In this document: one piece after another, positions 32,150 through 57,282 of the stretch
Layout: each line of letters begins with the position of its first letter
Position numbering within the stretch: the first letter of the stretch is position 1
NCBI RefSeq assembly: GCF_963576615.1
Contig: NC_088711.1
Span: 9,542,869-9,606,868 of the forward strand
Reading direction: 5' to 3'
Origin: Watersipora subatra
Taxonomy: Eukaryota; Bryozoa; Gymnolaemata; Cheilostomatida; Watersiporidae
DNA length: 64,000 nucleotides
The notes under the pieces: generated by a model
Told to the model about the DNA's origin: nothing
The model's input: the letters and a program-made list of their open reading frames with translations, nothing else
Databases searched by the model: none
Position numbers and translations under genes: made by a program

Positions 32150-34610
32150 TAAAGTTCTGAGCTCACTGCAAAATATCTAACATCATTTCTGCTTACCTTC
32201 TGAATTCCTGGATGGTTAATAAAACTAATATGTTAGATATTGTTTATCTCAAGTTATTCTCTAATTGATCAGCTCTAACAGTCAGTGAGTAATATATAAT
32301 TATAATGTAATAACTTACTTTTTGAATAGAGCTAGCAGAAGTCCAGTGAAAATCATCATTTGCTGACTTTAGCAGACTAACAGCAATGCTGCCAATCATG
32401 TGACTTCTCTCATTGATCATTAGGTTGTCTTCTTCAGGTAAATGCGTCCGTGTATGGGTCATAGATGATCGTAGGTATGAGAGATGGTTTGATTTTTATC
32501 TCTTCTAAATAGCCTGAGGCTACAGCACAGGAATGGTAGGAGTTGAGTGATGGAAAGCTAGCATATTGTGTGACAACATCTCTGACAGTCGGTGTAAACT
32601 CCTGAACCTGCAGGTTTAATTCCTACAAAGACTATGAGCGGTTTTGACACAGACTGTTAGATAATAACAAAGAATTTCCACTTTTAGAGTAGGTTACAGA
32701 AAGGGAAACGCTGTTCAATTTCGTAAGCTGTTTCGTTTTAACTCACAATAACTAACAAAGTGCAAGTAAATAGTTTCAAGAAACTGAATGAAGCACTAAC
32801 CAGTGTAAGTACTATCAACAGAAAAAAGTAAACTTACTGTTTCCAGCTACAAAAGACCAATATATATTTTTACCGATGAAATTTAAACTTTTGTGTTCAT
32901 GCGTTTATTTTTGGTTAATACTATTTAAACTGTGTTAAAAGGTAACACTGTTAAGTAGAAAACTGTATGTAACAGCGTGTTGTTTAATTTACAACTATAA
33001 TACAAAACTCACTAAAATCTTTCAAACTTTGGTATTCTTATCTTCCTTATCTAAATCTATTTGAATAAAATTTGGACTGATCTTTTTCTTATGCAAAAAC
33101 GTTAGAACAATTAAAATATAAAAGTTACATCAAGCATGGAAAAAGGTTTAACATAGAACATAGTTATTATATATTTAAAACTCTCAGAGATAGCGCTAAC
33201 TTTTCAGGAAAGACTGTCTTATATGTTTTTTAAACAAAAGTTATTATGAAAGTAGCCATATTTACTTACTGATTTGTTATCCAGACTGTCTTTAGTTGTA
33301 TCCATTTTAGGTTATGAAGTTCCTGTGGTTGTCTAATATTAATTGAGAAAACCTAAGCTTCTTACTTCTGCCTTTACCAAACAAATCCACTGATCTTTCC
33401 AGCAACTGTATTGTATATCACAACTAACTTGTTAATTATGGGAAATTATGTCATGTTCTCATTTAACTTCAACATCAAAGTTTTATCAATGGTAGACAAC
33501 TTCTAGAGTTGCTTTTGGTAAAGCTACTACATTCCTTTTATGGAAGATTTGAAAGCAGCTACTATTTTTCAAAGTGTTAGATATTGTTGTCATCTTTGGT
33601 TATGCTAAGTGTTAGATGTTGTTTATATCTTTTGTTATTCTATGTAATTCCTCCAGTTATCTTATTTGAAATAGATGATAATAATAATCACTAGATTATT
33701 ACTATAGAAATTGCATCTGGTATAGTATTATTAATTAGTATAACAATAGAATAAAAGAACTGATTGATCTTATGAGTTTCATCTCTTTAACTTTAATTCA
33801 ACTAGTTAGTTTAGTCTGAATCAAAGGGAATCTGAAAACCAAAACCATCAGGTCTCATTCAATAGTGTCAAACCATTGCTAATCAGGGCCTAAAGCCATA
33901 ACTAGCAAAGCTCCTGCATATGTGGGTCCTCGTTGCCTTTTATTTTTCTACTATTTCTCACTGTCATGTTTTCTTTTCAGTACAATAAAACAAACCATAA
34001 AATTCTGGTCTCATTAAAGCTATGAGGATCTCTGCAACTTGAGTAGCCATACTTTGGCTTTATTCTAATATTTTTAGAACTTTGTATTAATTTGTAGACT
34101 CACAGTCACACTACTAGTTCAAAATAATAAAAAAGCATTATGATTTATAGCAGTAGCAACTAGGCAAATGATTTACGCAAATTCATTAATCTGTCAGCTA
34201 AATTTCTACTGAGCAAAGAGCTAAAGACGTCCCATCGAGGCGAGTTTGAACCGATAGTGGACATTTTTGTCAGTTTTTATTGGCAGGGTCAGACAACTTT
34301 AGCTGATATAGTTTTACTCAAGCTTTGAATTTGTTTGGCTATTTTTTTTGAAGTTTTCTCTAGACGCTTCTAGCAAGTTTACCGATTACATGTATTTGCA
34401 CTGGCCAGTGTATCAGTAACAACAAATAACTATATGGAGAATGATGTTTCACTAACAACATCTGCTGTAACTATTACAGTAATGGTATCATTAATAAACA
34501 GAAACAGAAGAAAGAACAGGAACAGGCCTAAAGCACTAGGAAGTGTTTGGGTATCTACTGTCCTTGCTAACAGGGATTCTAGAGGAGCTTAGGGTTGCAT
34601 TGTTTCTGAT
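32150..34610 (-). repeat. Inverted partial copy of the homeobox unit (arm of a large palindrome)
   Basis: Read on the minus strand it follows unit 1 from the Harbinger head (35275-35665) to just after exon 2 (about 38520), lacking roughly 1 kb of the upstream flank. Together with unit 1 it forms an imperfect inverted repeat several kb long centred near 34.9 kb. Confidence 0.8.
32319..33305 (-). pseudogene. Inverted, truncated homeobox-gene copy (exons 1-2 only, frameshifted)
   Basis: On the minus strand, 33270-33305 is an exact counterpart of exon 1 (ATG through NKS, then gtaagt) and 32319-32622 is the counterpart of exon 2, with the same acceptor and donor. Exon 2 lacks one codon in the acidic patch (three Glu reduced to two). 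It also lacks 11 bases after DPYTD, which shifts the frame to TGA within four codons. Downstream homology continues to about 32150 and then stops; exons 3 and 4 with the homeodomain are absent. The exon starts ELNLQVQEF like copy 2, not KQNPQAQEF like copy 1, so copy 1 carries the derived state or conversion has occurred. It could still be transcribed toward METTL27, but it cannot make the homeodomain protein. Confidence 0.85.
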
Positions 34611-35235
34611 TTGTAGCCTCTATCTGGTGCCAGAGTGAGACAAACTTTTGAAAACTACTTTAGAGTGAATGAACATTGTTTCGAAGGATCACTTCCTTTT
34701 TTTATTTGATATGATACAGCGACACTGCAAGCAATCGTTTCACAGCAGAAACTAGCAGTGATCTTTCGATATCTAGCCACAGGTTGTAGCTACACAGAAC
34801 GATATTAACATTTTAGAATATCAGTTTTTCTGTAAAGCGATCTCATTCTTGAAACATGTTAAGCGCTCCACTGGTTTTTGAATATCTGAAAACTTTTTCA
34901 AGTGAGGAGAAAGAGAAAGCAATCAGTGATAAACTTTCTCACTTATGTACCGTCCCTGATGCTCTTAGAGCACTTGATAAAAAGCATATTGTGATGAACA
35001 AGCTGTGGCTATTGATGTGACATCCAACATGTTCCAGATGAACATGCTGAAAATTACAACCACAACTACAAAGGCACTAAAAGCATTGTACTGATGGCTG
35101 AATGCTATGCTGATTATCAGTAGGCATACATAAGTCTAATTAAAAGTAATAAATTGTTCAAATAAAAAGTTTCAAAAACTAACTTTATGTTATTTTCAAA
35201 AACAATGTTTTCCGGTAGTTATTACCATTTTAAGC
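34186..35235 (+). mobile_element. Decayed PIF/Harbinger element A
   Basis: Several frames of the plus strand encode pieces of a Harbinger transposase: RNRRKNRPKALGSVW and VLANRDSRGA near 34500-34590, AIVSQQKLAVIFRYLATG near 34730-34790, ALDKKHIVMNKLW near 34965-35010, and NYKGTKSIVLMAECYADYQ near 35065-35120. Stops and shifts separate them. The last two match the family's G-A-x-D-G-K-H and NYKG-hhSIVLhA blocks, with the catalytic region damaged. Confidence 0.8.
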
Positions 35236-35274
35236 ATATATAGAAAAAGCGAACCTAGAAGAAGAAAACAGTTT

Positions 35275-35665
35275 CAATATACCTCCACCATTACCTCTTC
35301 CAGCCAAACACTTTCTAGTGCTTTAGGCCTATTCTTTCTTCTGTTTCTGTTTATTAATGATACCATTACTTTAATAATTAAAACAGATGCTGCTAGTAAA
35401 ACATCATCCCCCATATAGTTATTCGTTATTACTGATAAACTGGCCAGTGCAAAATACATGTAATCGGTAAACATGCTGAAAGCATCTAGAGAAAACTTCA
35501 AAGAAAATAGCCAAACAAATTCAAAGCTTGAGTAAAATTATATCAGCAAAAGTTATCTGACCCTGCCAATAAAAACCGGCAAAAATGTCCACTATCGGTT
35601 CAAACTCGCCTCGATAGGACGTCTTTAGCTCTTTGCTCTGTAGAAATTTAGCTGACAGATTTATG
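35275..35665 (-). mobile_element. PIF/Harbinger fragment B (5' head, inverted relative to A)
   Basis: The reverse complement repeats the first about 390 bp of element A, including the end near TCTGTCAGCTAAATTT, the block GGCGAGTTTGAACCGATAG and the peptide RNRRKNRPKALESVW. It then ends abruptly in a sequence shared with 45440-45500. With A it makes head-to-head inverted arms about 660 bp apart. Confidence 0.75.
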
Positions 35666-37357
35666 AACTTATATATATATATATTTATTTATATATATTT
35701 ATATATAAATATGTATATATGTATATATATACATGTTTTTTCAAATTAGGCCATACAACAATAGTAAAACAAAACTTGTGTAAAACCTATGCCTAGTTGC
35801 TACTGCTATGAATCCTGATGCCTTTTTATTATCTTGAAGGCTAACCACTCTTACCTGTCTGTCCATAAGTTCAAAAAGTTGAGTCTACAACTCTGTTCTA
35901 TAACTGTTGCAAACTATAAGCACAGACATAGTTTGTTTTAATTTTCAATCTACAATTATAATTCTGTAACCCTAAGCTCTCCGTAGATGAAAGTGAAGCC
36001 AGTTTTTCACTGCTCGTGACACGCACTGATTCCTACACATCTTATTTCTCTAAAGAAGACTCTGTTTACTAAAGAAGAGTGAGAGTAACAATAACTAATA
36101 GTGTGACTGTGAGTCTACTGAAGTCAACAAGTGATGGTTCTGACTGGACTTTTACTAGTTCTACCTTAATAGTAAGTTTATAAAGCTGTCAGCAATCCCA
36201 CTAGTATAAAAGTTGGAAATTGATGAATGAAAACTTCCAAGAAACTCAATTGACAGACAAATTAGAGTAACTGAGTTATTTAACGGTCAATAAAATTTTT
36301 TAATATTCAATAAATTGAAAAGATACGTCATGAGCTATAGAACTAAAATTTAAATTTATTTTAACATCCGTCGAGTCAGCTTTACTAAATAATATCCGGG
36401 TTTGCTCTACCTTCGAATATCAGACAATGTCATTTTTCATTTATAGGCATAAAAAGAGGGGTAGAATTAGTGACTTCCTGAAAAAAAATTTGCATGAAGC
36501 ATCAATATATAAATTTGATTTAAAACATTACGTCTTCAGCTACAATGTTCTAGTATTGTTCGCAAAAAACATCATGTGGTTCTAAAATATAAGTATAAAG
36601 CCGAAATAGGGCTACTTAAGTTGCATAGATTCTCATAGCTTTAATTAGAACAGATGTTTATAGTTTGTTTGTTTTATTGTATTGAAAAGAAAACATGACA
36701 GTGAGAAAAAGTAGAAAAATAAAAGGCAACGAGGTACCACATGTGCAGTAGCATTGCTAGTTATAGCTTTGGGCCCTGACTAGCAATGGTTTGACACTAT
36801 TGAATGAGACCTGATGGTTTTGGTTTTCAGATTCCCTTTGATTCAGACTAAACTAACCAGTTGAATTAAAGTTAAAGAGATGAAACTCATAAGATCAATC
36901 AGTTCTTTTATTCTATTGTTATACTAATTAATAATACTATACTTGATATAATTTCTATAGTAATAATCTAGTGATTATTATTATCATATAATTTAAATAA
37001 GATAACTGGAGGAATTACATAGAATAACAAAAGATATAAACAACATCTAACGCTTAGCATAACCAAAGATGAGAACAATATCTAACACTTTGAGAAATGG
37101 GAGCTGCTTTTAAATCTTCCATAAAAGGAATCTAGTAGCTTTACCAAAAGCAACTCTAAAAGTTGTCTACCATTGATAAAACTTTGATGTTGAAGTTAAA
37201 TGAGAACATGAAATTATTATCCCATAATTACCAAGTTAGTTGTGATATAAAATATGGTTGCTGGAAAGATTGCTGCATTTGCTTGGTAAAAACAGGAGTG
37301 AGAAGTTGAGGCTATCTCAATTAATATTAGACCACCACGGGAACTCCATAACTTAAA

Positions 37358-40300
37358 ATGGATACAACTAAAGACAGTCTGGATAACAAATCAGTAAGTA
37401 AATATTGCTACTTTCGTAATAACTTTCGTTTAAAAAAACATATAAGACCAAGCTTTTCCTGAAAGGTTGACGCTATCTCTGAGAGTTTTAAATATATAAT
37501 AACTATGTTCTATGTTTAACCGTTTGCAGAACTTCACCTAATATCTAAATTTTAAAGATTGTAAAGTTTTCCATTAAAAAAGATCAGTCCGACTTTCACT
37601 CAAATAGATTTAGATAAGGAAGATAAGAATACTAATGTTTGATTGATTTTAGTGAGTTTTGTATTATAGTTGTAAATTAAACAACACACTGTTACATACA
37701 GTTTTCTACTTAACAGTGTTACCTTTTAGCACAGTTTATATAGTGTTAACCAAAGATAAACGCATGAACACAAAATTTAAAAATTCATCAGTAAAATATA
37801 TATTGGTCTTTTGTAAGCTGGCAACAATAAGTTTACTTTTTCCTGTTGATAACACTTGCACTGGTTAGAGCTTTAATAAGTTTCTTGATGAAACTATTTG
37901 CTTGCACTTTGTTAGTTATTGTGAGTTAAAGCGGATGAACGGCTCACGAAATTGAACAGGCTTTCCCTTTCTGTAACCAACTCTAAAAGTGGAAATTCTT
38001 TGCTATTTTCTAAAACTCTGTGTCAAAACTGATCATTGTCTTTGTAGAAACAAAACCCACAGGCTCAGGAGTTTACACCGACTGTCAGAGATGTTGTCAC
38101 ACAATACGCTAGCTTTCCATCTCCCATTTCCTACCATTCCTGTGCTGTCGCCTCGGGCTATTTAGAAGAAGAAATAAAAGTCAAACCATCTCTCATACCT
38201 ACGATCATTTATGATCCAAGCACAAACACATATGAGTCGCATTTACCTGAAGAAAACAACCTGACAATAAATAACAGAAATCACACGATTGGCAGCATTG
38301 CTGTTAATCTGCTGAAATCAGCAAATGATGATTTTCAATGGACTTCTGCTAGCTCTATTCAAAAAGTAAGTTATTGCATTATAATTATATATTACTCCCT
38401 GACTGTTAGAAGTGATCAATTAGAGAAAAACTTGAAATAAACAATATCTAACATATTAATTTTATTGAAAAACAAAGAATTCGAAAGGTAAGCAGAAGCG
38501 ATGTTAGATAATCTGCGGTGGGCTCTTGTATCTAATGACTAGTATTGAGACATTCTATAGACTCACTTTAACCTGACTGTGAATATCAGTTTGTACCATT
38601 ACTACAACTAGTATACTTACCACTCTCATGCAGTGTGAGAAATTGTTATGAGTAATCAGTACATGCATAATTATCCCTTGAATTGGTAAGGTGATGGAGA
38701 GATATGATGATAATGTGCAGCCTTTTGAATCTGATTCCCAGTTTAAATTTTCATGCGGGGACGATTTTTTTCCTAATGCCCTTCGCAAGGCTTCAGACAG
38801 ATGGACACCGCTCTTAGTATAGTAAAGACTTGACTTGCAACACTGCGTTACAATATTTGACACACCTGTGGAGTTTGTATATCTGTGTAGTTTGTATATA
38901 TGTGTAGTATGTATATCTGTGTAGTTTGCATATCTGCGTAGTTTGTATATCTGCGTAGTTTGTATATCTGTGTAGTTTGTATATCTGTGTAATTTGTATA
39001 TCTGTGTAGTTTGTATACCTGTGTAGTTTGTATATCTGTGTAGTTTATATATCTGTGTAGTTTGTATATCTGTGTTGTTTGTATATTTGTGTAGTTTGTA
39101 TATCTTTGTAGTTTGTATACCTGTGTAGTTTGTATATTTGTGTAGTTTATATATCTATGTAGTTTGTATATCTGTGTAGTTTGTATATTTGTGTAGTTTG
39201 TATATCTATGTAGTTGGTATATCCGTGTAGTTCGTATATCTGTGTAGTTTGTATATCTGTGTAAATTGTATATCTGTGTAGTTTGTATAGCAGTGTAGTT
39301 TGTATATCTGTGTAGTTTGTATATCTGTGTAGCTTGTTTATCTGTGTAGTTTGTATATCTGGGTAGTTTGTATATCTGTTTAGTTTGTATATCTGTGTAG
39401 TTTGTATATCTGTGTAGTTTGTATATCTGTGTAGTTTGTATAATTGTGTAGTTTGTATATTTGTGTAGTTTGTATGTCTATGTAGTTTGTATATCTGTGT
39501 AGTTTGTATATTTGTGTAGTTTGTATATTTATGTAGTTGGTATATCCGTGTAGTTTGTATATCTGTGTAGTTTGTATATCTGTGTAAACTGTATATCTGT
39601 GTAGCTTGTATACCAGTGTAGTTTGTATATCTGTGTAGTTTGCATATCTGTGTAGTTTGTATATCTGTGTAGTTTGTATAACTGTGTAGTTTGTATACCT
39701 GTGTAATTTGTATATCTGTGTGGTTTGTATACCTGTGTAGTTTGTATATCTGTGTAGTTTGTATATTTGTGTAGTTTGTATATCTGAGCAGTTTGTATAT
39801 CTGTGTTGTTTGTATATTTTTGTAGTTTGTATATCTGCGTAGTTTGTATATCTGTGTAGTTTGTATATCTGTGTAGCTTGTTTATCTGTGTAGTTTGTAT
39901 ATCTGTGTTGTTTGTATATCTGTGTAGTTTGCATATCTGTGTAGTTTGTATATCTGTGTAGTTTGTATATCTGTGTAGTTTGTATACCTGTGTAGTTTGT
40001 ATATCTGTGTAGTTTGTATACCTGTGTAATTTGTATATCTGTGTGGTTTGTATACCTGTGTAGTTTGTATATCTGTGTAGTTTGTATATCTGTGTTGTTT
40101 GTATATCTTTGTAGTTTGTATATTTGCGTAGTTTGTATATCTGTGTAGTTTGTATATCTGTGTAGTTTGTACACTTGTGTAGTTTGTATATCTGTGTAGT
40201 TTGTATACCTGTGTAATTTGTATATCTGTGTGGTTTGTATACCTGTGTAGTTTGTATATCAGTGTAGTTTGTATACCTGTGTAATTTGTATATCTGTGTG

Positions 40301-41290
40301 GTTTGTATACCTGTGTAGTTTGTATATCTGTGTAGTTTGTATACCTGTGTAGTTTGTATATCTGTGTAGTTTGTGTACCTGTGTAGTTTGTATATATGTG
40401 TACTTTGTATATATTTTTTGTTAATATGGTAGTATGCTATTTTTAGGCTGTTACAAATCTCAGAACTTTAGAAAAGGAAAACAACCCTGAAACTCAAGTT
40501 GTTCATGTAAGTGGTTTTTTCCCATTTTGACTTATTTGGTTCTTCTCATGACTGCTATCTTTAAAACTGTTTAAATACTTACATATATTTTATCAGAGTG
40601 AATCAGTGTTTGGATGAAGAGCTATTGATCTGGCTATTGGCACATTACCATCTCATAAGAAGGATTTTAGTTCAAACTTTCATTACATTTGTGTTAAAAT
40701 TGTATTCAGTTCAAACTGCCCTCGTGCTATGTCATAAGTATATAGTTACATTGTCACTCTCAACTCTAACTGTGATACAGCCATAATTGACATAGTAGCA
40801 GACTGCAACTGCATTGGCCACCTGAATGAGTACATTCAAGCATGTTATTAATAGATGATTACTAAACAATAGACATTTAATGAATTACAACTATCTCACC
40901 AGGAAGCAAGAAGTTGTAACTTTTAGGTTGCAAGTTTTAATAACTTCATGGCTAACTAGACTCCCTCATCAGTGAGTATGATCGCATCCTTTCTAGCTTC
41001 ATGTATATTTGCAGACATCAATAAAGTCTATCGAGTTGTCCACTCAAGCTGCTAGTGACAAGTCTGCTGCCATAGATATTTTAGAGAAATGGTATAGGGA
41101 GAATCATGCCACTCCATATCCGACATCTCAAGAATTATCTAACCTTGTCAAAGCTACTGGCTGGCCCGCTAAAAAAATCAGCAAATGGTTATGCAACAAA
41201 AGATTTCGTGATAAGAACACTCGTCACCTTGGCACTGTTGTGGCCTTAAGGCGACAACAAAAAGTCAAGGCTAAAGAACTTGCCGATTAA
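37358..41290 (+). CDS. Divergent TALE-class homeobox protein, tandem copy 1
   Basis: Exons 37358-37393, 38048-38365, 40447-40506 and 41015-41290 all join in phase 0, giving 229 aa and TAA. Residues about 150-212 are a homeodomain with the three-residue PYP loop that defines the TALE class (ENHATPYPTSQEL). The recognition helix reads KKISKWLCNKRFRDK: Trp48 and Asn51 are kept, Phe49 is Leu and residue 50 is Cys. The spacing from PYP to Trp48 (22 residues) equals that of PBX, and NKRxR is PBX-like. The 137 residues before it contain no domain I recognise; they are Ser/Thr/Asn-rich with an acidic patch (GYLEEEIK). Likely a nuclear DNA-binding regulator. Lophotrochozoans have fast-evolving, tandemly arranged TALE genes (the SPILE group); membership is a hypothesis. 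Intron 2 holds the 17-bp minisatellite. The start is the first ATG before a canonical donor and is conserved in all three copies. Confidence 0.85.
38866..40420 (+). repeat. 17-bp minisatellite in intron 2 of homeobox copy 1, about 91 units
   Basis: Unit GTTTGTATATCTGTGTA with point variants (TACCTG, TTTGTG). Higher-order blocks recur, e.g. the TGTGTGGTTTGTATACC segments near 39720, 40040 and 40220. Its minus-strand open frame is an artefact of three units making 51 bases. Confidence 0.95.
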
Positions 41291-44200
41291 TTATACGTAT
41301 AGACTGTCCTTCATTTCATATGTCTGTGACATTATGAACTACAAAAGTCTATTTAAATAATTCTATATTAATCTTTGGATCTATATATTAGTGTTATAAT
41401 AGTTTATACATGAGTTGTAATTTATATAAAAATTAATAACTTATATAGCTATTATACAATAACTAAACTTTTGATGGTATTATATAAGGTGTATTTCATG
41501 GCTATATGAGTTAAACAACTTGATAGTTAGTATTTTCTTTGCATAAATAAAATCTTTGAAACCTTTCAGCTTTTTAAAATAAGCCATTTTAAATAAATAA
41601 AGTTTATAATGATCTTTTACTGTAATAATGTCATCTTCTACTGATGGTGAGGAAATATACTCGTGTTATATTGATAATTTAACACTTTTTACTTGATTAG
41701 ACAACAGTATATTCATTTGGAAAATAGTTAATTTACTGGTACTCCATTGACAAAATATTGGATGACCATATAGGTTTTAGACCTAGTCTTTAACGCTCAC
41801 TAAATTATTTTGTCATTATAATTTGAACCAATAAACAACTTCAATTGGATATGGAGAGTTTTAGTTCAATTCAGGATTGTTAGTCACATTTTATGAACAT
41901 CAGCTCAATCACTTGAGTTTAAGGGAGCACTTTTGATTGTTGGTAAGTTTGAAAAGCAAAACGGTATCAACATTTTGTCACATTGTATATTAGAATTGTA
42001 TATTAGAATATTATATTGTATATTGTATATTTATGTTTATATCACTAGATTTACGCAAATATACAAAGTCCAATAAAAGTATTAGCAAATAATTGATAGA
42101 TTTGAGCAACAAATGTATATAAAACTTTTACCCAAACTCTAGACAACAAGAATAATCGCGTATATTACTTAACAAAAACAATCCATCAAAGAAAACACTA
42201 TTTATGATTTAAAAATTCTTTTATTTTAAATTGTCAATTAAAATATAAAGTAACACAGTAGACAAAAAACCTTTTAATGAAAAGCTTGAAGATTTACGTT
42301 TAAAGTTATTAACAATTTTCTCCCATAGTTTTTTCTGTTAAATTTAATTGGAAATTGAACCAAGGTTTATAAATTTGAACAGTATGAACAGTTGAAGTAC
42401 TTTAAAGATCAGCAAGTGTATTAAATATCAAATCTACAATAGGAGAGCTTAAGTTAGTGCTCACCTGTTACATACATGTAGATAACGATTAATTTAGAAT
42501 TTACCAGAATGAGAATTGAAAAAATAACAAAAAGTATAAAATAATAGCCTTCAGAAGAGAAGTTTGTGAATGTAAAAATATTTGTAACATTAGTTTCAAG
42601 GGCACCCGACCTGCATTGATCGGCAAGATACACAAATGCTAAGTATTTCATTACATAAATCAATGCAGCTAGTTGAGGAATCATCTTCTCTCTGCAATTA
42701 TTATTGTAAGACCTAATATTGAATAAGTAACTTCTCAAAGGAAACTAAAAAATAGGTATCTCATCTCCAGGATATAAAATCGACGCTGAATAGTTACACC
42801 CAATTATTTCATGCTGTAGTTTTATTTTCTATACATTTTTTCTATTTTTCAAACACATCGATAAGCTACGTACACACAGTAACAACAAGACATAAGGATA
42901 AAATTCTTTTTGACTCATAGAATTTGATGATTGAATTATTTTTTTTAAAAATCAGAACTTTTTCCGACTATCTAACGATGTATGTAAAGACGCCATATTG
43001 TTGGCATCTCTGGTGATCTGTGACATCAAGAGTTTGGTAGAATCAGCAGATGATTAATGACTATGTTTCGGATTTTTTTCAACGCTTCTGATGTGTCAAA
43101 GCGGACTAACCGAAATACAATATTTTAAAGTTATTTTGTAGTTGGAATAAACAAATACACATAAAATCAGTTTTAAAATCACAGCATGGATCATTAGAGA
43201 GAAATAGTTATTAACCAATAGGAGCTCTACGAGTAACAATCGTAAGAATGTGTAATGGTGCAATGGTGCTGGCTTCGTTCTGTTGGACTGGCTGGCTGCC
43301 AAAGATTTGAGGTGATGTTTCCTGCCAGTTTGAAATAAGAATAGTGACAAAAGTACAATGATCTTGTTTGTTTCTCATGTGTATGTAAAATGTAGACCAG
43401 CTAACTTTGAGTCAGTTTTAATACTTTGATAAGACTGTAGAGTAATTATATCCTAAGTGTGATTTTGTGAAATGTGATGATCTATTGATGGTTTAGTATA
43501 CATGACCAAACAAACTTGTATGTCAATTACCTTCATCAAAATGCATGCCTGACATATTCAAAGCAATCTCCAGCAAACTCTCAGCCGAACTGGCTTAAAT
43601 CAGTCAAAAATCTGACAGTTGTATTGTTGAGATGTTTGCAAGGAGGTAGATGGAAGTACAATAAACAGGGCTGACCATATTTCTCCCCATTACTTCCGAC
43701 TATAACAACAGCAGAGCCTGTATAACAAAATGGTTCACCGATTAGGTTACAATATCTATCACATAGGTAGTAATTTTGAGAACGAAGTTACAAAAAAACT
43801 AAACCAAAGGAAGATAATGCGAAAACAGAATTTTAGAGAGTTTAAATGTATTAGGTACAATTGCAAACAGAATTGCTTTTCATCAGTTATATTTTGGTAT
43901 TTAGCAAAGATTACTACCAAAAGCTATAAATATATAAAAGAAAAGATGAACAAGAGTAACCGCTTTCATGCAGAAATCAGATTAACATCTGAAGTGTTGT
44001 TAGTATATGCACAACGACTTATGATTTATTTTCTCCATTGTGTTGAGCTGATAACTCCAGACACCCAGAGCTGCAATAGATCTTTGGAACTATGATATTA
44101 CATTGTTTATTAGTATCATTTACTAAATAGAATGATGAAGAGATATTCTACAGTATTTCTCGATAGGAGAGATTTTAGTACCAAAGCTAGTGAAAAGAAT

Positions 44201-44303
44201 TGTTTTTAAGATTTATGTTTAATTATGAAAATAGCATCTTATATTATATTTTTATTGTCCTGGTTTTATTTTGTTTTATAATTTTTAAACACTGATGCTT
44301 TCA

Positions 44304-44770
44304 GGTTGTAGCTACTCAAAACTGTATTAAAATCTCAAACCTGTATCTGTTTCTCTGTTAAGTGACCTCAATACTGAAACATGGGAAGTGATCCACTAGG
44401 CTTTCGAATATATGATGACCCTTGTAAGTGAGGAGAAATAGAAAGTAATCATTGATAAGCTTTCTCACTCATGTAACGTCCCTAATGCTCTTAGAGCACT
44501 TGATAAAAAGCATATTGTAATTAACAAGCTGTGGCTATTGATGTGACTTCCAACATGTTCCAGATGAACATACTGAAAGTTACAACCACAGCTACAAAGG
44601 CTCTAAAAGCATTGTACTGATGGCTGAATGCTACGCTGATTATCGATAGGCATACGTAAATCTAATTAAAAGTGGTAAATTGTTCAAATAAAATGTTACA
44701 AAAACTAACTGTTTGTTATTTTTAAAGTCAATTATTTTCGGTAGCTATTACCATTTTAAGCGTAATTAAA
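44304..44770 (+). mobile_element. PIF/Harbinger fragment D at the duplication junction
   Basis: Starts at AGGTTGTAGCTAC, matching element A at about 34785, and continues parallel to A through AGAGCACTTGATAAAAAGCA and ATTGTACTGATGGCTGAATG. Immediately before it is the 3' flank of homeobox copy 1. This is the join between the two tandem units. Confidence 0.75.
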
Positions 44771-44869
44771 ATGCTAAAATCTTCCATTTAAATTATAACA
44801 ATCATTTTCAAATTGTTTTACCAAAGGTAATGTACTATTTGTTTTTCATTTTACTTATGTGAGTGTAGG

Positions 44870-46560
44870 AGCAAACGGTCGCGTACAGTGCCCTTTGTTA
44901 AAGTACCGTTGATACTCACTCTTGATTGACCTCATACTGTCAGGGGCCCATCTGGCAACATTGTTCAACTCTCCAATATCATGGTTAGGAGGTTATGCCA
45001 GTTCCATGGCTCATAGTCAGTGTGCGATGATTGTTGATACCTGGTGGTCTAATAGAAAACTTTGCAATGTACAAGCGACCATCGCTACTTTGTCTACTTT
45101 GCCCGGTTGTAATGCTATTTTGAGACTCGCCATGTTGCTGACATAATTCTAAAGGCATGTTCAGTGAGTTTCCGCATTTGAGGTAAATGGTAGTTAAATA
45201 TCTACAAAAAAAAAAAATGAAAAGGGAAGAAATGATACAACTTGAACAGCTAAGTGAATTCCTGCTAAACAAAGTGAGACCGAGCAATAAAATACTATAA
45301 ACTGGGACTATGTCATATTTTCCCTTTCGTCATGGTTGAGCTCTATCTGTTACTATGATTTTATAAGATATGATTTGAGAGAGAATACTTTATTTGTTTA
45401 GAGGAAGTGCAGCGAAACTATTTAGGTTGTTGGAACAAGAGATAGTGGAGGTATATTGAAAGTGTTTTCTTCTTCTAGGTTCGCTTTTTCTACATACGCT
45501 TAAAATGGTAGCAACTACCGGAAAAAATTGACTTTGAAAATAACAAAAAGTTAATTTTTGAAACTTTTTATTTGAACAATTTATTAATTTTAATTAGACC
45601 TATTTATGCCTACTGATAATCAGCATAGAATTCCGCCATCAGTACAATGCTTTTAGTGCCTTTGTAGTTGTGGTTGTAACATTCAGCATGTTCATCTGGA
45701 ACATGTTGGAAGTCACATCAATAGCCACAGCTTGTTCATCACAATGTGCTTTTTATCAAGTGCTCTAAGAGCGTTAGGAACATTATGTTTGTGAGAGAGT
45801 TTATCACTGATTACTTTCCATTTCTCCTCACTTGCAAGAGTCATCACATATTCGAAAGCCTAGTGGAGCGCTTAACATGTTTCAGGAATGAGATCGCTTT
45901 ACAGCAAAACTAATATTCTAAAATGTTAATATCATTCTGTGTAGCTACAACCTGTGGCTAGATATCGAAAGGTCACTGCTAGTTTCTGCTGTGAAACGAT
46001 TGCTTGCAGTGTCGCTGTATCATATCAAATAAAAAAAGGAAGTGATTCTTCGAAACAATGTTCATTCACTCTAAAGTAGTTTTCAAAAGTTTCTCTCACT
46101 CTTGTACCAGATAGAAGCTACAAATCAGAAACAATGCCACCCTAAGCTCCTCTAGAATCCCTGTTAGCAAGGACAGTAGATACCCAAACACTGCCTAGTG
46201 CTTTAGGCCTGTTCTTTCTTCTGTTTCTGTTGATTAATGATACTATTACTGTAATAATTAAAGCAAATGTTGTTGGTAAAATATCATCCTCCATATAGTT
46301 ATTCGTTATTACTGATACACTGGCCAGTGCAAATACATGTAATCGGTAAACTTGCTAGAAGCGTCTAGAGTAAACTTCAAAAAAAATAGCCAGAAAATTT
46401 CAAAGCTTGACTAAAGCTATATCAGCTAAAGTTGTCTGACCCTGACAATAAAACTGGCAAAAATTTCCACTATCGGTTCAAACTCGCCTCGATGAGACGT
46501 CTTTAGCTCTTTGCTTTGTAAAAATTTAGCTGACAGACTAATGAACTTGTGTAAAACATA
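44870..46560 (-). mobile_element. Decayed PIF/Harbinger element C (most complete copy)
   Basis: Minus-strand element that includes the head seen in fragment B (46200-46555), the middle blocks (RYLATG region near 45970, ALDKKHI region near 45760) and a C-terminal block ASLKIALQPGKVDKVAMVAC followed by TLQSFLLDH near 45045-45130, matching the LHNFL end of Harbinger transposases. Frames are broken throughout. Homeobox copy 2 follows its head end. Confidence 0.75.
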
Positions 46561-48078
46561 TGCTTAGTTACTACTGCTATAAATCCTAATGCCTTTTTAT
46601 TATCTTGAAGGCTAACCATTCTTGTCTCTTTTTCCATTAGTTTGAAGAGTTGAGTCTACAACTCTTCCATTTAAGAACAGACATAGCTTTCACCAATTTT
46701 CAGTCTACAATTATAATTCTGTAACCCTAAACTCTCCGTAGATGAAAGTGAAGCCAGTTTTACACTGCTCGTGATACACACACTGATTCTTACACATCTT
46801 ATTTCTCTAAAGAAGACTCTGTTTACTAAAGAAGAGTGAGAGTAACAATAACTAGTAGTGTGACTGTGAGTCTACTGAAGTCAGCAAGTGATGGTTCTGA
46901 TTGGACTTTTACTAGCTCTATCTTAATAGTAAGTTTATAAGGCTGTCAGCAAACCATTAGTATAAAAGTTGGAAATCAGTGAAAAAAAATTTGCAAAAAG
47001 TTAAATTATCAGACAAATTAGAGGAACTGAGTTATTTAACGGTCAATAAAATTTTTAAATATTCAATAAATTGAAAAGGTACGTCATGAGCTATAGAACT
47101 AAAATTTAAATTGATTTTAACATCCGTCGAGTCAGTTTTGCTAAATAATATCCGGGTTTGCTCTACCTTCAAATATCAGACAATGTCATTTCTCATTTAT
47201 AGGCATAAAAAGAGGGGTAGAATTAGTGATGTCCTAAAAAAAATTTGCAGGAAGCATCAATATATAAATTTGATTTAAAACATTACGTCTTCAGTTACAA
47301 TGTTCTAGTATTATTCGCTAAAAACATCCTGTGCTTCTAAAAATATAAGTATGAAGCCGAAATAGGGCTACTCAAGTTGCTTAGATTTTCATAGCTTTAA
47401 TTAGAACAGATGTTTATAGTTTGTTTGTTTTATTGTATTGAAAAGAAAACATGACAGTGAGAAAAAGTAGAAAAATAAAAGGCAACGAGGTACCACATAT
47501 GCAGTAGCATTGCTAGTTATAACTTTGGGCCCTGACTAGCAATGGTTTGACACTATTGAATGAGACCAGATGGTTTTGGTTTTCAGATTCCCTTTGATTC
47601 AGACTAAACTAACCAGTTGAATTAAAGTTAAAGAGATGAAACTCATAAGATCAATCAGTTCTTTTATTCTATTGTTATACTAATTAATAATACTATACTT
47701 GATGTAATTTCTATAGTAATAATCTAGTGATTATTATTATCATCTATTTCAAATAAGATAACTGGAGGAATTACATAGAATAACAAAAGATGAGAACAAC
47801 ATCTAACACTTTGAGAAATGGGAGCTGCTTTTAAATCTTCCATAAAAGGAATCTAGTCGCTTTACCAGAAGCAACTCTAAAAGTTGTCTACCATTGATAA
47901 AACTTTGATGTTGAAGTTAAATGAGAACATGAAATTATTATCCCATAATTACCAAGTTAGTTGTGATATAAAATATGGTTGCTGGAAAGATTTCTGCATT
48001 TGCTTGGTAAAGACAGGAGTGAGAAGTTGAGGCTATCTCAATTAATATTAGACAACCACGGGAACTCCATAACTTAAA

Positions 48079-51000
48079 ATGGATACAACTAAAGACAGTC
48101 TGGATAACAAATCTGTAAGTGAATATTGCTACTTGCATAATAACTTTTGTTCAAAAAACATATAAGACCAAGCTTTTCCTGAAAGGTTGACGCTATCTCT
48201 GACAGTTTTAAATATATAATAACTATGTTCTATGTTAAATAGTTTGCAGAACTTTACCTAATGTCTAAATTTTAAAGTTTGTAAAGCATTGCATTAAAAA
48301 AGATCAGTCCAAATTTCACTCAAATAGATTTAGATAAGGAAGATAAGAATACTAATGTTTGACAGATTTTAGTGAGTTTTGCATTATAGTTGTAAATTAA
48401 ACAACACGCTGTTACATACAGTTTTCTACTTAACAGTGTTACCTTTTAGCACAGTTTATATAGTATTAACCAAAGATAAACGCGTTAACACAAAATTTAA
48501 AAATTCATCAGTAAAATATATATTGGCCTTTTGTAAGCTGGCAACAATAAGTTTACTTTTTTCTGTTGATAATACTTACACTGGTTAGAGCTTCATTCAG
48601 ACTCTTGAAACTATTTGCTTGCACTTTGTTAGTTATTGTGAGTTAAAGCGAACGAACAGCTCACGAAATTTCACGAAACAGGGTTTCCCTTTCTGTAACC
48701 TACTCTAAAAGTGGAAACTCTTTGCTATTTTCTAAAACTCTGCACCAAAACTGATCATTGTCTTTGTAGGAACTAAACCTACAGGTTCAGGAGTTTACAC
48801 CGACTGTCAGAGATGTTGTCACACAATATGCTAGCTTTCCATCTCCCATTTCCTACCATTCCTGTGCTGTTGTCTCGGGCTATTTAGAAGAAGAAATAAA
48901 AGTCAAACCATCTCTCATACCAACGATCATTTATGATCCATGCACAGACACATATGAGTCGCATTTACCTGAAGAAAACAACCTGACAATAAATAACAGA
49001 AATCACACGATTGGCAGCATTGCTGTTAATCTGCTGAAATCAGCAAATGATGATTTTCAATGGACTTCTGCTAGCTCTATTCAAAAAGTAAGTTATTACA
49101 TTATAATTATATATTAATCCCTGACTGTTAGAAGTGATCAATTAAAGAATAATTTGAAATAAACAATATCTAACATATTAATTTTATTAAAAAGCAAAGA
49201 ATTCAAAAGGTAAGCAGAAGTGATGTTAGATAATCTGCAGTGAGCTCTGGTATCTAATGATTAGTATTGAGACGTCCTGTAGACTCACTTTAACTTGACT
49301 GAATATCAGTTTGTACCATTACTACAACTAGTACACTTACCACTCTCATGCAGTGTGAGAGATTGTTATGAGTAATCACTACATCCATAATTATCCCTTG
49401 AATTGGTAAGGAGATGGAGAGATATGATGATAGTGTGCAGCGTTTTGAATCTGATTCCCAGTTTAAATTTTCATGCGGGGACGATTTTTTTCCTAATGCC
49501 CTTCGCAAGGCTTCAGACAGATGAACACTACTCTTAGTATAGTAAAGACTTGACTTGCAACACTGCGTTACAATATTTGACACACCTGTGGAGTTTGTAT
49601 ATCTGTGTAGTTTGTATATCTGTGTAGTTTGTATACCTGTGTAGTTTGTATATCTGAGCAGTTTGTATATCTGTGTAGTTTGTATATCTGTGTAGTTTGT
49701 ATATCTGTGTAGTTTGTATATCTGTGTAGTTTGTATATTTGCGTAGTTTGTATATCTGTGTAGTTTGTATATCTGGGTAGCTTGTATATCTGTGTAGTTT
49801 GGATATCTGAGCAGTTTGTATATCTGTGTAGTTTGTATATCTGTGTAGTTTGTATATCTGTGTAGTTTGTATATCTGTGTAGTTTATATATTTGCGTAGT
49901 TTGTATATCTGTGTAGTTTGTATATCTGGGTAGCTTGTATATCTGTGTAGTTTGGATATCTGAGCAGTTTGTATATCTGTGTAGTTTGTATACCTGTGTA
50001 GTTTGTACATCTGTGTAGTTTGAATATCTGTGTAGTTGGTATATCTGCGTCATTTGTATATCTGCATAGTTTGTATACCTGTGTAGTTTGTATATCTGTG
50101 TAGTTTGTATATCTGCGTAGTTTGTATACCTGTGTAGTTTGTATATCTGTGTAGTTTGTATATCTGAGCAGTTTGTGTATCTGTGTAGTTTTTATTTCTG
50201 TGTAGTTTGTATATCTGTGTAATTTGTATACCTGTGTAGTTTGTATATCTGCGTCGTTTGTATATCCGCGCAGTTTGTGTACTTGTGTAGTTTGTATATA
50301 TGTGTACTTTGTATATATTTTTTGTTAATATGATAATATGCTATTTTTAGGCAGTTACAAATCTCAGAACTTTACAGACAGAAAATAACCCTGAAACTCA
50401 AGTTGTTCATGTAAGTGGTTTTTTCCCATTTTAGACTTATTTGGTTCTTCTCATGACTGCTATCTTTAAAACTGTTTAAATACTTACATATATTTTATCA
50501 GAGTGAATCAGTGTTTGGATGAAGGGCTATTGATCTAGCTATTCACACATTATCATCTCATAAGAAGGATTTTAGTTCAAACTTTCATGACATTTGTGTT
50601 AAAAATGTATTCAGTTCAAACTGCACTCGGGCTATGTCAGAAGTATATAGTTACATTGTCACTCTCAACTCTAACTGCGATACAGCCATAATTGACATGG
50701 TAACAGACCTCAACTGCGTTGGCCACCTGAATGCAAGCGTGTTATTAATAGATGATTACTAAACAGTAGACATTTAATGAATTACAACTATCTCACCAGG
50801 AAGCAAGAAATCGTAGATTTTAGGTTGCAAGTTTTAATAACTTCTTGGCTAACTAGACTCCCTCATCAGTGGGTATGATCGCATCCTTTCTAACTTCAGT
50901 ATATTTGCAGACATCAATAAAGTCTACCGAGTTGTCCACTCAAGCTGCTAGTGACAAGTCTGCTGCCATAGACATTTTAGAGAAGTGGTATAGGGAGAAT

Positions 51001-51186
51001 CATACCACTCCATATCCGACATCTCAAGAATTATCTAACCTTGTCAAAGCTACTGGCTGGCCCGCTAAAAAAATCAGCAAATGGTTATGCAACAAAAGAT
51101 TTCGTGATAAGAACACTCGTCACCTTGGCACTGTTGTGGCCATAAGGCGACAGCAAAAAGTCAAGGCTAAAGAACTTGTCGATTAA
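48079..51186 (+). CDS. Divergent TALE-class homeobox protein, tandem copy 2
   Basis: Same four-exon structure as the copy about 10 kb upstream: 48079-48114, 48770-49087, 50351-50410, 50911-51186, all phase 0, 229 aa. By hand count, 13 codons differ by amino acid and 9 are silent relative to copy 1. The homeodomain differs only at one residue (ENHTTPYP instead of ENHATPYP). Most replacements cluster at the start of exon 2 (ELNLQVQEF here, KQNPQAQEF in copy 1), at S-to-C and N-to-D in the middle of that exon, and in exon 3 (LQTENN versus LEKENN). Splice sites and introns are also closely similar, so the duplication is fairly recent. No frame-disrupting change is present, so both copies look functional. 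The intron 2 minisatellite is about half the length of that in copy 1. Confidence 0.85.
49583..50310 (+). repeat. 17-bp minisatellite in intron 2 of homeobox copy 2, about 43 units
   Basis: Same unit and same intronic position as the array in copy 1, so the array existed before the duplication. A block of about 0.15 kb ending GATATCTGAGCAG is repeated inside it (near 49740-49815 and 49880-49965). Confidence 0.95.
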
Positions 51187-54100
51187 TTATATAGACTGTC
51201 CTTCGTTTCATATGTCTGTGACATTATGAACTACAAAAGTCTATTTAAATAATTCTATATTAATCTTTGGATCTATATATTAGTGTTATAATAGTTTATA
51301 CATGAGTTGTAATCTATATAAATATTATATAAACTTTTGATGGTATTATATAAAGTTTATTTCATGACTATATGAGTTAAACAACTTGATAGTTAGTACT
51401 TTCTTTGCATAAATAAAATCTTTGAAACGTTTCAGCTTTTTAAAATAAGCCAATTTTAAATAAATAAAGTTTATAATGATCTTTTACTGTATTATTGTCA
51501 TCTTCTACTGATGATAAGGAAATATAGTCATCTTCATCTCATAACATATCATCTTGGGTAGCATCTGTTATATTGATAATTTAACACTTTTTATATGATT
51601 AGACAACAGTATTTAGATTTGGTAAATAGTTTTTTTACTGGTACTCCATTGACAAAATATTGAACGACCATATAGGTTTTAGACCTAGTCTCTAACGCTA
51701 ACTAAATTATTCTGGCATTATAATTTGAACCAATAAACGACTTCAATTGATATGGAGAGTTTTAGTTCAATTCAGGATTGTTAGTCACATCTTATGAACA
51801 TCAGCTCAATCACTTGAATTTAAGGGAACACTTTTGATTGTTGGTAAGTTTGAAAAGTAAAACGGTATCAACATTGTATCACATTGTATGTTAGAATTTA
51901 TATTTATATCACTAGATTCACGGAAATATACAAAGTCCAATACAAATATTAGCGAATAATTGATAGATTTTAGCAACAACTGCATGTAAAACTTTTACCC
52001 AAACTCTAGACAACATCCTACAGAATATATTTCTGTTATGGTTAATCTAAATTGATGCAAGAATATTTACGTAACTGCGTAGGTTGCTGAACAAGAACAA
52101 TCTGTCTGAGAAAGCATGCTATTTATGAGTTGAAGTTTTTTTTTTCAATATGTGAATTAAAATATAAAGAAACACACTAGACATAAAACCTTTTAATGAA
52201 AAGCTTCAAGATTTACGTTTAACATTATGAACAATATTCTCCCATATTCTTTTTCGTTAAACTTAATTGGAAATCGAACCAAGGTTTATAAATTTGAACA
52301 GTATGCACAGTTGAAGTACTTAAATGATCAGCAAGTGTATTAAATATCAAATCTACAATAGGAGAGCTTAAGTTAATGCTCACCTCTTACATACATGTAC
52401 GATAACGATTAATTTAGAATCAACAAGAATGAGAATTGAAAAAATAACACAAAGTATAAAATAATAGCCTTCAGAAGAGAAGTTTGTGAATGGAAAAATA
52501 TTTGTAACATTAGTTTCAAGGGCACCCGCCCTGCATTGATCGGCAAGATACACAAATGCTAAGTATTTCATTACATAAATCAATGCAATTAGTTGAGGAA
52601 TCATCTTCTCTCTGCAATTATTAACGTAAGACCTAATATTTAATAAGTAACTTCTCAAAGGAAACTAAAAAATAAGTATTTCATCTCTAGGATATAACAT
52701 GGACGCTAAATAGTTACACCCAATTATTTCATTCTGTAGTTTTATTTTCTATTTTTTCTATTTATCAAACACATAGATAAGCTATGTACACACAGTAACA
52801 ACAAGACATAATGATAATTTTCCTGTTGACCCATAAAATTTGATGATTGAATTATTTTTAAAAAAACTCAGAAATTTTTCTGACTATCTAACGATGTATG
52901 TAAAGTCACCATATTGTTGGTATCTCAGGTGATCTGTGACATCAAGAGTTTGGTAGAATCAGCCAATGATTAATGACTATGTTTAGGATTTTTTTTTCTA
53001 AGCTTTTGATATGTCAAAGCGCACTAACCGAAATACAACATTTAAAGTTATTTTGTAGTTGGAATAAACAAATACACATAAAATCAGTTTTAAAATCACA
53101 TCATAGATCATTAGAGAGAAATAGTTATTAACCAATAGGAGCTCTACGAGTAACAATCATAAGAATGTGTAATGGTGTAATGGTGCTGGCTTCGTTCTGT
53201 TGGACTGGCTGGCTGCCAAAGATTTGAGGTGATGTTTCCTGCCAGTTTGAAATAAGAATAGTGACAAAAGTACAATGATCTTGTTTGTTTCTCATGTGTA
53301 TGTAAAATGTAGACCAGCTAATTCTGAGTCAGTTTTAATACTTTGATGAGACTGTAGAGTAATGATATCACAGGTGTGATTTTGTGAAATGTGATAATCT
53401 ATTGATGGTTTAGTATATATGACCAAACAAACTTGTATGTCAATTACCTTCATCAAAATGCATGCCTGACATATTCAAAGCAATCTCCAGCAAACTCCCA
53501 GCCGAACTGGCTTAACTCAGTCTAAAATCTGACAGTTGTATTGTTGAGAAGTTCGTAAGGAGATAGATGGAAGTATAATAAGCAGGGCTGACCATATTTC
53601 TTCCTATCACTTCCTACTATGGCAACAGCAGAGCCTGTATAACAAACTGGTTCACCGATTAGCGTACAATATCTATCACATAGGTAGCAACATTGAGAAC
53701 AAAGTTACAAAAAACTAAACCAAAGGAGAATAATGCAAAAACAGAATTTAATTGCGTTTAAATGTATTAGGTACAATTGCAAACAGAATAGTTTTTCATC
53801 AATTACATTTTTCTAGTTAGCAAAGATTACTACCAAAGGCTATATATGATATAAAAGAAAAGATGAACAAGAGTAACTGCTTTCATGCTGAAACCAGTTT
53901 AACATCTGAAGTGTTGCTAGTATATGCACAACGACTTATGATTTATTTTCTCCATTATGTTGAGCTGATAACTCCATACACTCAGATCTGTGATATTGGA
54001 AGTAAGAGATACTATGATATTACATATCATAGTATCTCTTTATCATTCTATTTAGTAAATGATATTAATAAAAAATGTAATATCATAAGTCCAAATAACA

Positions 54101-55152
54101 AATAGCATCTTATACGGTAATATATTTTTATTGTCCAGGTTTTATATTGTTTTATAATTTTTAGACACTACTGCATTCTGGATATTCTGTAAATCTTACA
54201 AGTAATTTAAGGTACATAAAATATATTCATTTTTAATGAAAAGTAGAGTTTAATGATATACATTTTGATTTGTTAAGAAGACGCTAAATGCGACAATATC
54301 TGGTTTGCATGTTTCACGATTCTATGAAACAAAGGAAAATATCGACGAATTTATTACTTAGGATACTTCTAGTATTTTTTCTCTTAATGTATTTTTGCTT
54401 TAGACACTCAGCCTTTTATCACTGATACAGTTTTTAAACGGGCTGTTTTGAAGCTTTATTGGAAATTGCATTCAAATAAAAAACTAGTATTTCCATTTCA
54501 AAGTATTTCAATTAAAAAAACAAGTTTCTCCTAAAATTTAATAAGTTACCTTTACAGTAACAAAAAAGTGTAAGTTTAAATATTAAATAGAAGCAATTAG
54601 CGTAAATTCATGATATAAATTTAATGAAGTCGTTCATTCTTTGTTATAACAAATAGGATTATAGAAATATCTCTGCATTCATCAACTTGTATGCAACGAG
54701 TGGATAATACAGCAATTCCTTGAGTGAGTATTTAAAATTAGCTAAAGTCTTATTTGATCAAATTTGACTAAAGAAATAAAGATTATGGCAACGGGACTTG
54801 AAAAACTGCCACACGAATGATTAACATGATACTCTTATATACCTGCTAGCAAAACACTTTGTGAATTATTTACTTTCAGAGTAGAGGTAGTAATACTCTG
54901 GCTACCCTATGGCCAGCCTCTAGTAACAAGAATATTTTAGTTTTTACAAAATGATGGTTTGTAGAATTATACATGCGTGTTGTAATTTGTATGTTGTAGT
55001 TGCAACAAAGTATGAGTATATTATATATAAATAATGCAGCATCGTTTCCAAAACAAAAACACTTTCCTGCCCTTTTTTAGCCCTTATTTAGCACTTGAAG
55101 TTAGAAGTTCAGGAATAGCAGCTTCATCTACTTGCTCAGCTATTGTTGAGTG
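51187..55152. other. 3' flank of homeobox copy 2 and unannotated intergenic DNA
   Basis: To about 54170 this parallels 41291-44303 after copy 1. From there to the long-TIR MITE I see only AT-rich sequence without a gene. Confidence 0.5.
54004..54040. repeat. Perfect 17-bp hairpin, 3-bp loop
   Basis: AAGAGATACTATGATAT, loop TAC, then the exact complement. Present in duplication unit 2 but not in unit 1. Confidence 0.9.
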
Positions 55153-55847: not shown

Positions 55848-55851
55848 TCTT

Positions 55852-55924
55852 TGGAGGCGCCGGGTATCGATCCCGGTACCTCTCGCATGCTAAGCGAGCG
55901 CTCTACCATTTGAGCTACGCCCCC
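55852..55924 (-). tRNA. tRNA-Ala (anticodon AGC)
   Basis: The reverse complement folds as a 73-nt cloverleaf: acceptor GGGGGCG pairs with CGCCTCC (one G-T), D arm GCTC/GAGC, anticodon stem CTCGC/GCGAG around loop TTAGCAT, and T arm CCGGG/CCCGG with loop ATCGATA, then discriminator A. The anticodon at positions 34-36 is AGC (Ala). Internal A box (TAGCTCAAATGG) and B box (GGATCGATACC) are intact. No intron. The only RNA gene in the window. Confidence 0.97.
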
Positions 55925-56662
55925 ATGTCCGCTTCCAAAAATTTTAGCGTACTATATATCTATCTATCAGTTATATTAGCAAATAATTTATGGTAACGAG
56001 CACGCAAATTTTGTTTACTACAATACATCCCACCATCGGAAATCTTTTTCGACGTCTGTGATTTTAAACATGTTGCACGCATTCCCTGACTATTCCTTAT
56101 CAAATGTCGACGTATTTTTAAGCATTTTATTATAAAGCACTACAATTGATTAATAAGTTGGGACAATTGGCCAAAGCGAAAGGCAATTACTCCTTCAAAA
56201 GATGTATTATGGCGTGAACGGTCAGTCGCGATTCTTTATTTCAGTGTTAATAATTTATTGCAGTTTTAGCAGCAATAACATTTTCACTACCCAAGAGGTG
56301 GCAAAGAGTGTTCTACCTCATCTGAGGTGTTTTGTTTGTGACAGACCATAGCCTGCTAATATTTTAGCAGTATGATTAATAAGTCATTACAATGAAGTTA
56401 CTTTTTGCTCTAATGTTTTGCTCTTTTGTTACGGTTATGTCACTCTTTGAAGTATATATAGGAAATACGTTTGTTGAGCAGTTAGATTTAAAGTTTTTAA
56501 AGAGAATAAAATTTTGTCTACATGCGTTAGACCTCTTTTACTATATATCCTTCCTACCAGACTCGTACTGGCATACTGAACCCATCTTTTAGAATAGATC
56601 AATACAAATACACATTTGATAATAGAATGGTACCAAACATTTCACGTCCAGAGATTGCTACT

Positions 56663-56836: not shown

Positions 56837-57282
56837 TTGCTACTACTTTTAACCTATAAGACAATATTAGTTACTCATTTTCAACGTTTTTAATTTTAGG
56901 TCTATGTAATCACTTTGGGCATATTGGAAAGATTTGAATACATATATAAAACAAAAAGTTGCACTTACTAGTGCGGCTTGAGCGACTACGTGATGGTGCT
57001 GCTCTTTATGACATCAAAAATTATATTCTAATAGTTGTTTTATCAATTTTGTTCAATTTATTTTATTAATGAGGGTGTTTAAATCAGTTTTTTCAAAAAC
57101 GCAAAGATATAGTTTTTTTTCCGCGCTTTCAGCAAGCTTCAGACAACTTATGTAGCTCTGCAAAGTACGATCTCATTGCTGCCTTTCCATTATGACCCAA
57201 TAAATTTTGTCAAAATTTTTTTATAGCAATGTGAAGTGTGAAAAATTCTCGCCTGTGATCTGAGCAGTGCGCAGAACAAAAG

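Follow-up and report, generated by a model that had tools for sequence, protein, structure and literature searches.

How does a homeobox gene come to stand three times, in both orientations, among the decayed remains of a dispersed repeat? The question is raised by a locus of the bryozoan Watersipora subatra within a 64,000-nucleotide stretch of contig NC_088711.1 (positions 9,542,869–9,606,868; hereafter, the window), which we read from the assembly sequence alone. Self-comparison of the window, in which the self-hits longer than 150 bp out of a total of 305 were considered, revealed one inverted, truncated copy and two direct copies of the gene with the repeat in between. The large palindrome and the order of parts given in a preliminary description of this DNA were likewise recovered. 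With moderate confidence, we interpret the locus as a birth-and-death cluster that grew by a fold-back and a non-homologous join, with the breaks falling inside one repeat. Its main parts are the following.

32159–34080, minus strand: inverted, truncated gene copy, with exon 1 (33305–33270) and exon 2 with deletions
34118–35302, plus strand: decayed repeat, left palindrome arm, converging on the minus arm; Harbinger-like by its motifs
35304–35838, minus strand: stub of the repeat to the left of unit 1, presumably left over after loss of the palindrome center
35773–44305, plus strand: unit 1, direct copy, from the self-comparison
44302–44884, plus strand: repeat fragment cut at the tandem junction (CAGG), plus arm of the fold-back
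44876–44891: fold-back junction, CGGTCGCG joined to TACAGTGC, matched at C4:40644391
44895–46609, minus strand: longest repeat copy in the window, minus arm, with the unpaired palindrome spacer as its 3′ portion
46544–54181, plus strand: unit 2, direct copy, from the self-comparison

The two direct units are 88–92% identical in the self-comparison. The inverted segment 32159–34080 is 88.7% identical to 36579–38525 in unit 1, and 32159–34079 is 87.4% identical to 47335–49247 in unit 2. Alignment of exon 2 of the inverted copy revealed a 3-bp and an 11-bp deletion, the latter a frameshift; exon 3 of this copy was looked for and not found. Together with the open frames of the direct copies, these observations agree with the previous account of a frameshifted copy limited to exons 1 and 2 and two intact direct copies.

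The tandem pair had been attributed to unequal homologous recombination between two Harbinger copies. For such an exchange, the repeat has to flank the duplicated unit on either side, and a complete chimeric copy has to stand where the two units meet. Both inner junctions do carry repeat sequence (34118–35838 and 44302–46609), and unit 2 begins exactly in the repeat: 44302 starts with sequence homologous to 34780, 2–6 bp from the positions first given (44304 and about 34786). There is also a precedent in moths, where, according to PMC9977156, repeats are tandemly duplicated with the Shx homeobox genes and long interspersed nuclear elements (LINEs) are suggested to favor duplication through their nonhomologous pairing at meiosis. 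However, of the 40 bp on the left of the 44301/44302 junction, 35 agree with the right end of unit 2 and 5 with the repeat, and of the 40 bp on its right, 30 agree with the repeat and 8 with the flank after unit 2. The sequence thus switches abruptly from the right end of a unit to the middle of the repeat. Relaxed blastn and tblastn searches at E<1 detected no such repeat at either outer edge (32159 and 54181); the nearest of the listed matches lie near 30.75 kb, where they are 22–29 bp long and due to chance, and near 57.67 kb, where there is one of 19 bp. The claim that Harbinger sequence marks each boundary therefore holds for the two inner junctions and fails for the outer edges. With the repeat on one side only and the junction copy starting mid-element, exchange between two repeat copies is contradicted, and we regard it as quite improbable.

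Non-allelic homologous recombination would have left homologous sequence on either side of the duplicated unit, and none was found on its right. What the junction does contain is microhomology at 44302–44305 (CAGG/CTGG), of which GG is certain and CAGG, four bases, would be shared if unit 2 changed one. This is within the 0–6 bp at an otherwise non-homologous junction that characterize duplication by microhomology-mediated break-induced replication (MMBIR) or end joining. Judged by its junction, the tandem pair would be the product of a non-homologous join with 2–4 bp of microhomology, the repeat most likely having supplied breakpoints, not homology.

The repeat itself is a dispersed, multi-copy element: of 48 genome matches listed, 33 are located away from the two gene regions and are spread over ten contigs. 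These counts are a lower bound, as 40 of 205 candidates were scored in the search of the genome (784 Mb, 239 contigs). Its translations are reminiscent of Harbinger transposases, a resemblance that neither Pfam nor PDB sequences support. Elements of the PIF/Harbinger kind are marked by a DDE_Tnp_4-type transposase, terminal inverted repeats and a 3-bp target duplication. No transposase family was found in Pfam for the decayed fragments of the window and the dispersed copies, and PDB searches likewise returned no transposase; one match below the Pfam cut-off was to Abhydro_lipase (E 0.089). The Harbinger name thus lacks Pfam support. In a translated search, reading-frame fragments lie on the plus strand at 34.5–35.1 and 44.5–44.6 kb and on the minus strand at 46.2–45.6 kb. 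The frames therefore converge, and the copies at the palindrome center run tail-to-tail, not head-to-head as previously described. The two head-on repeats of the window are 91.7% identical over 1186 columns, and the arms are 94.7% identical over a 527-bp part, whereas five dispersed copies are 72–76% identical to the window arms (of eleven dispersed copies fetched, five were used for identity and three for the tree). The arms were therefore probably copied along with the gene, and the two head-on repeats most likely represent one insertion duplicated with it, not independent insertions.

The course of the probable fold-back can be followed with the help of a dispersed copy on C2 (L042/L047), which is collinear with window 46497–44895 on the minus strand, spacer included, apart from gaps and an inserted array. 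Window 44422–44884 matches the same copy on the plus strand. The two arms of one element therefore meet near 44884, with the minus arm extending about 0.6 kb beyond the plus arm. An origin of the spacer foreign to the repeat was considered and dropped, since the C2 copy proved collinear with it. L042 also contains, at about 2100–3000, an array of ~60-bp units within the coding part.

The same junction is seen at C4:40644391, where CGGCCGCG is followed by TACAGTGC, as compared with CGGTCGCG followed by TACAGTGC at 44876; the form common to both is CGG(T/C)CGCG followed by TACAGTGC. The window contains GCGTACAGTG a single time, as do the 35.5 kb of the second locus; of the 99486 8-mers of the window and the second locus together, 4 agree with CGGTCGCG at 7 or more of 8 positions. 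At C4:40648331, the sequence runs on without folding back and, by eye, resembles the C2 copy.

This junction belongs to a second cluster at ~40.64 Mb, 31 Mb from the window cluster (~9.57 Mb) on the same chromosome, which was compared by matches of 60 bp or more. There, the repeat is adjoined by an inverted gene whose exons 2 and 3 are open and whose exon 1 was not found, and is followed by a direct gene with exon 1. The plan of inverted gene, repeat and direct gene is therefore not unique to the window. More copies of the family lie at 40.52 and 40.67 Mb, and all 20 listed protein matches in the genome are on C4. The 17-bp minisatellite of intron 2 described below is matched in both 40.64 Mb genes. 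In another family member (L011/L012, C4:40667877–40669646), with a stop in exon 3, the 3′ half of exon 2 is tandemly repeated about eight times, with a period of ~230 bp.

Distances and trees describe the relationships among these copies (gap columns removed). Kimura two-parameter distances (K2P) in region S1 are 0.108 between the inverted copy and unit 1, 0.104 between it and unit 2, and 0.045 between the units (u1 and u2), and those to the direct gene of the second locus are 0.14–0.15. When the latter gene serves as outgroup, 55 sites unite u1 with u2, compared with 8 and 6 for the alternatives, and the two units group together at 100% in the tree. Region X1 is near-star (0.087–0.107). The u1–u2 distances are 0.095 (5′) and 0.084 (3′) and range by region from 0.045 to 0.107. 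Divergence is unequally distributed over the unit (chi-square 133 with 31 df, from the 32 of 34 windows with more than 120 comparable sites, taken outside the minisatellite and up to 260 bp from the end of the unit), as constraint or conversion would give. Among the repeat arms, K2P is 0.097 for A1–A3, 0.159 for A1–A2 and 0.167 for A2–A3. We infer that A2–A3 may represent the old divergence of the arms, with A1 later homogenized with A3, two separate inversions being the less likely alternative. Ordering the tandem and inverted events by a strict clock was set aside, since distances and trees conflict between the gene and repeat parts.

Could the two inverted pairs, one at 9.57 Mb and the other at 40.64 Mb, then have arisen independently, their repeat fragments being alike by chance? 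Several observations speak for this and against a common palindrome. The exon-3 tree pairs the two genes of the second locus (96%), as does S1b, weakly (61%), and in S1b the window inverted copy is at K2P 0.10–0.12 from u1 and u2, with which it groups, and at 0.16 from the other inverted copy. Taken plainly, these results favor two separate inversions, and a common palindrome therefore needs later homogenization within each locus. Furthermore, repeat identity between the loci is 76%, about as low as to the dispersed copies. Other points count against our interpretation of the locus: the junction match at the second locus comprises only ~8 bp on the left side, with a deletion adjoining; the inverted copy falls outside u1 and u2 in gene-region trees, not in repeat-region trees; and the repeat fragment cut at the tandem junction has diverged more than a simple story would allow (A1–A2 versus A1–A3 and u1–u2) and groups, weakly (73%), with the second locus. 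On the other hand, independent inversions would have to account for the same fold-back junction at the same base, for a spacer that is 84–89% identical between the loci and 67.7% identical to the C2 copy, and for a repeat tree in which both loci stand together at 100%, apart from three dispersed copies. We therefore consider two independent events rather unlikely. On the common origin that we prefer, the palindrome appears to predate the window cluster, although the exon-3 tree argues the opposite.

An assembly artefact, in which two haplotypes or haplotigs were joined at the repeat, would place a false join just where contigs tend to break, at a dispersed repeat. Yet the 64 kb contain no N, the contig is 67 Mb long and holds all listed family matches, the regional u1–u2 distances given above are accompanied by different internal deletions and minisatellite copy numbers (91 versus 43), and the inverted and direct plan recurs at the second locus. 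An artefact of this kind is, in our judgment, very doubtful.

The history that we propose would begin with one copy of the dispersed repeat, on the minus strand, upstream of the gene on the plus strand. A fold-back inverted duplication with both breakpoints in that repeat, ~0.6 kb apart, would have produced a palindrome of inverted gene, plus-strand repeat, minus-strand repeat and direct gene, and we infer that this palindrome or its precursor came to lie at two sites of one chromosome, ~9.57 Mb and ~40.64 Mb. At the first of these sites, its right half would then have been tandemly duplicated by a non-homologous join of the unit 3′ flank to the middle of the plus-strand repeat, with 2–4 bp of microhomology (GG or CAGG), as in MMBIR or end joining; a replication-based mechanism may thus have operated. 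Finally, the palindrome center would have been lost from unit 1 and the inverted copy truncated and frameshifted, while the two direct genes stayed open.

In both direct units, three exons with open frames, GT/AG borders and phase 0 throughout code for a protein of 209 residues.

37358–37393, plus strand: unit 1 exon 1, 12 codons, donor GTAAGT
38048–38365, plus strand: unit 1 exon 2, 106 codons
41015–41290, plus strand: unit 1 exon 3, TALE-type homeodomain
48079–48114, plus strand: unit 2 exon 1
48770–49087, plus strand: unit 2 exon 2
50911–51186, plus strand: unit 2 exon 3, TALE-type homeodomain

The two proteins differ at 11 residues. The ratio of replacement to silent rates (dN/dS) between u1 and u2 is 0.43, from 7 silent and 11 replacement changes, so that selection between these two alone is weakly shown, a further point against our interpretation. 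Between the window genes and three open copies elsewhere, dN/dS is 0.27–0.39 (exons 2–3), and the protein has therefore been under constraint. Exon 2 forms a conserved block of 106–108 codons in five paralogues. The exon-3 homeodomain matches Pfam Homeobox_KN above the cut-off in two frames (E 5.7e-10 and 6.5e-10), and the three extra loop residues of the TALE class are present in both exon-3 frames (51 residues over 48 PF00046 positions). Helix 3 reads WLCNKR in both genes, with the TALE residues W48, N51 and R53 present. Position 50 is C in both window genes, whereas I, A or G is named there for TALE genes in PMC5322547. No PBC, MEIS or Iro companion domain (PBX, MEIS and IRX families) was found in either 209-residue protein in Pfam searches up to E 1. 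Judged by these features, the gene is a divergent, TALE-type and probably functional one, which may act as a regulator.

Five of the 17 Homeobox_KN matches in the genome come from this gene family. Of the other twelve, nine presumably represent, by eye, Tgif, Pknox or Meis, Pbx, Irx, Six and Cux, two (L063 and L064) presumably belong to other homeobox classes, and L051 was not placed. Membership in the spiralian TALE (SPILE) group, which is defined by a spiralian host, placement in the SPILE clade and a PADRE region of ~90 residues ahead of the homeodomain, is not claimed, the short list of other TALE genes in the genome giving no help. Nor is a PAM2 motif claimed at the exon 1/2 border (37393/38048 and 48114/48770), as unit 1 scored 17.6 bits against a Pfam cut-off of 20 and unit 2 was not listed; by eye, unit 2 contains the PAM2-like stretch SELNLQVQEFTP. 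A 26-residue query matched, among PDB chains, only TFIID subunit 10 (E 0.12 and 0.91).

Other features of the units are the following.

38866–40412: 17-bp minisatellite in intron 2 of unit 1, 91 copies
49586–50316: 17-bp minisatellite in intron 2 of unit 2, 43 copies
36025–36162, plus strand: older decayed exon-2 fragment in unit 1, upstream of the gene
46773–46937, plus strand: older decayed exon-2 fragment in unit 2, upstream of the gene

The older fragments are 95.7% identical to one another and 63–65% identical to exon 2 of the two genes. A segment of ~78 bp is inverted between the two units (44069–44145 and 54033–54110), with 86% identity once one of the pair is reversed, and in unit 2 is associated with short inverted repeats. 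Flanking frames, listed at 6338–6682 (minus), 26309–26467 (plus) and 57259–57603 (plus), include DOCK C2 and methyltransferase matches, both slightly under the Pfam cut-off, and a third that is amino-acid-transporter-like by eye and has no Pfam match. A tRNA-Ala (AGC) lies at 55851–55925 (minus).

The locus joins known kinds of gene cluster, as tandem TALE arrays in molluscs and transposon-linked homeobox expansion in moths have already been described. Near-identical A/C-clade TALE genes are reported from a limpet, where they are tandemly arranged, and from a chiton, where they occupy one scaffold (PMC8524836). The mollusc SPILE arrays, as portrayed in PMC8524836, PMC6118893 and PMC5322547, likewise combine a divergent TALE homeodomain, a conserved region before it and lineage-specific, near-identical copies in tandem or on one scaffold. 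Unlike them, the present locus has one inverted copy and junctions resolved to the base, and this genome yielded few further non-canonical TALE genes. For the lepidopteran Shx expansions, PMC9977156 reports local LINE enrichment and repeats duplicated with the genes, as here; LINE pairing was suggested there, whereas the window locus points to a non-homologous join with the repeat as passenger. For the human Y palindrome P8 (VCY), PMC6790999 reports tandem duplications of palindrome sequence with 2 or 6 bp of microhomology, which are attributed to MMBIR, as well as an arm deletion, a new palindrome at 5 bp and other cases that arose by repeat recombination. Microhomology-associated tandem duplication of palindrome sequence is common to P8 and the window, but the P8 variants span ~30–440 kb and segregate on the Y chromosome, whereas the window units are old and ~10 kb long. 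Fold-back inverted duplication, as outlined in PMC10164571, similarly yields an inverted duplication with an unpaired spacer; here, unlike there, the fold-back is deduced from junction sequence. Among the papers listed in a search for Harbinger together with homeobox duplication, none dealt with this combination, judged by title. What is new here is junction-level evidence against recombination between repeats.

Transposon copies amid duplicated homeobox genes are easily taken as the cause of duplication via homologous recombination. At this locus, the junctions are readable base by base, and they cast the element as a passenger and host of breakpoints. With the second cluster and the unfolded copy, the series of events, from repeat to fold-back, copy, tandem and decay, is testable in related species. 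More speculatively, and in our estimation unlikely as a whole, a single transposon insertion may have made the homeobox gene a self-amplifying palindrome, with its center in the element, that was carried as a unit to a second chromosomal site, the breakpoints at its center recurring there in tandem duplication, center deletion and arm conversion. If this is true, the number of regulatory genes would have grown from the instability of a palindrome, and not from transposition or transposon recombination.

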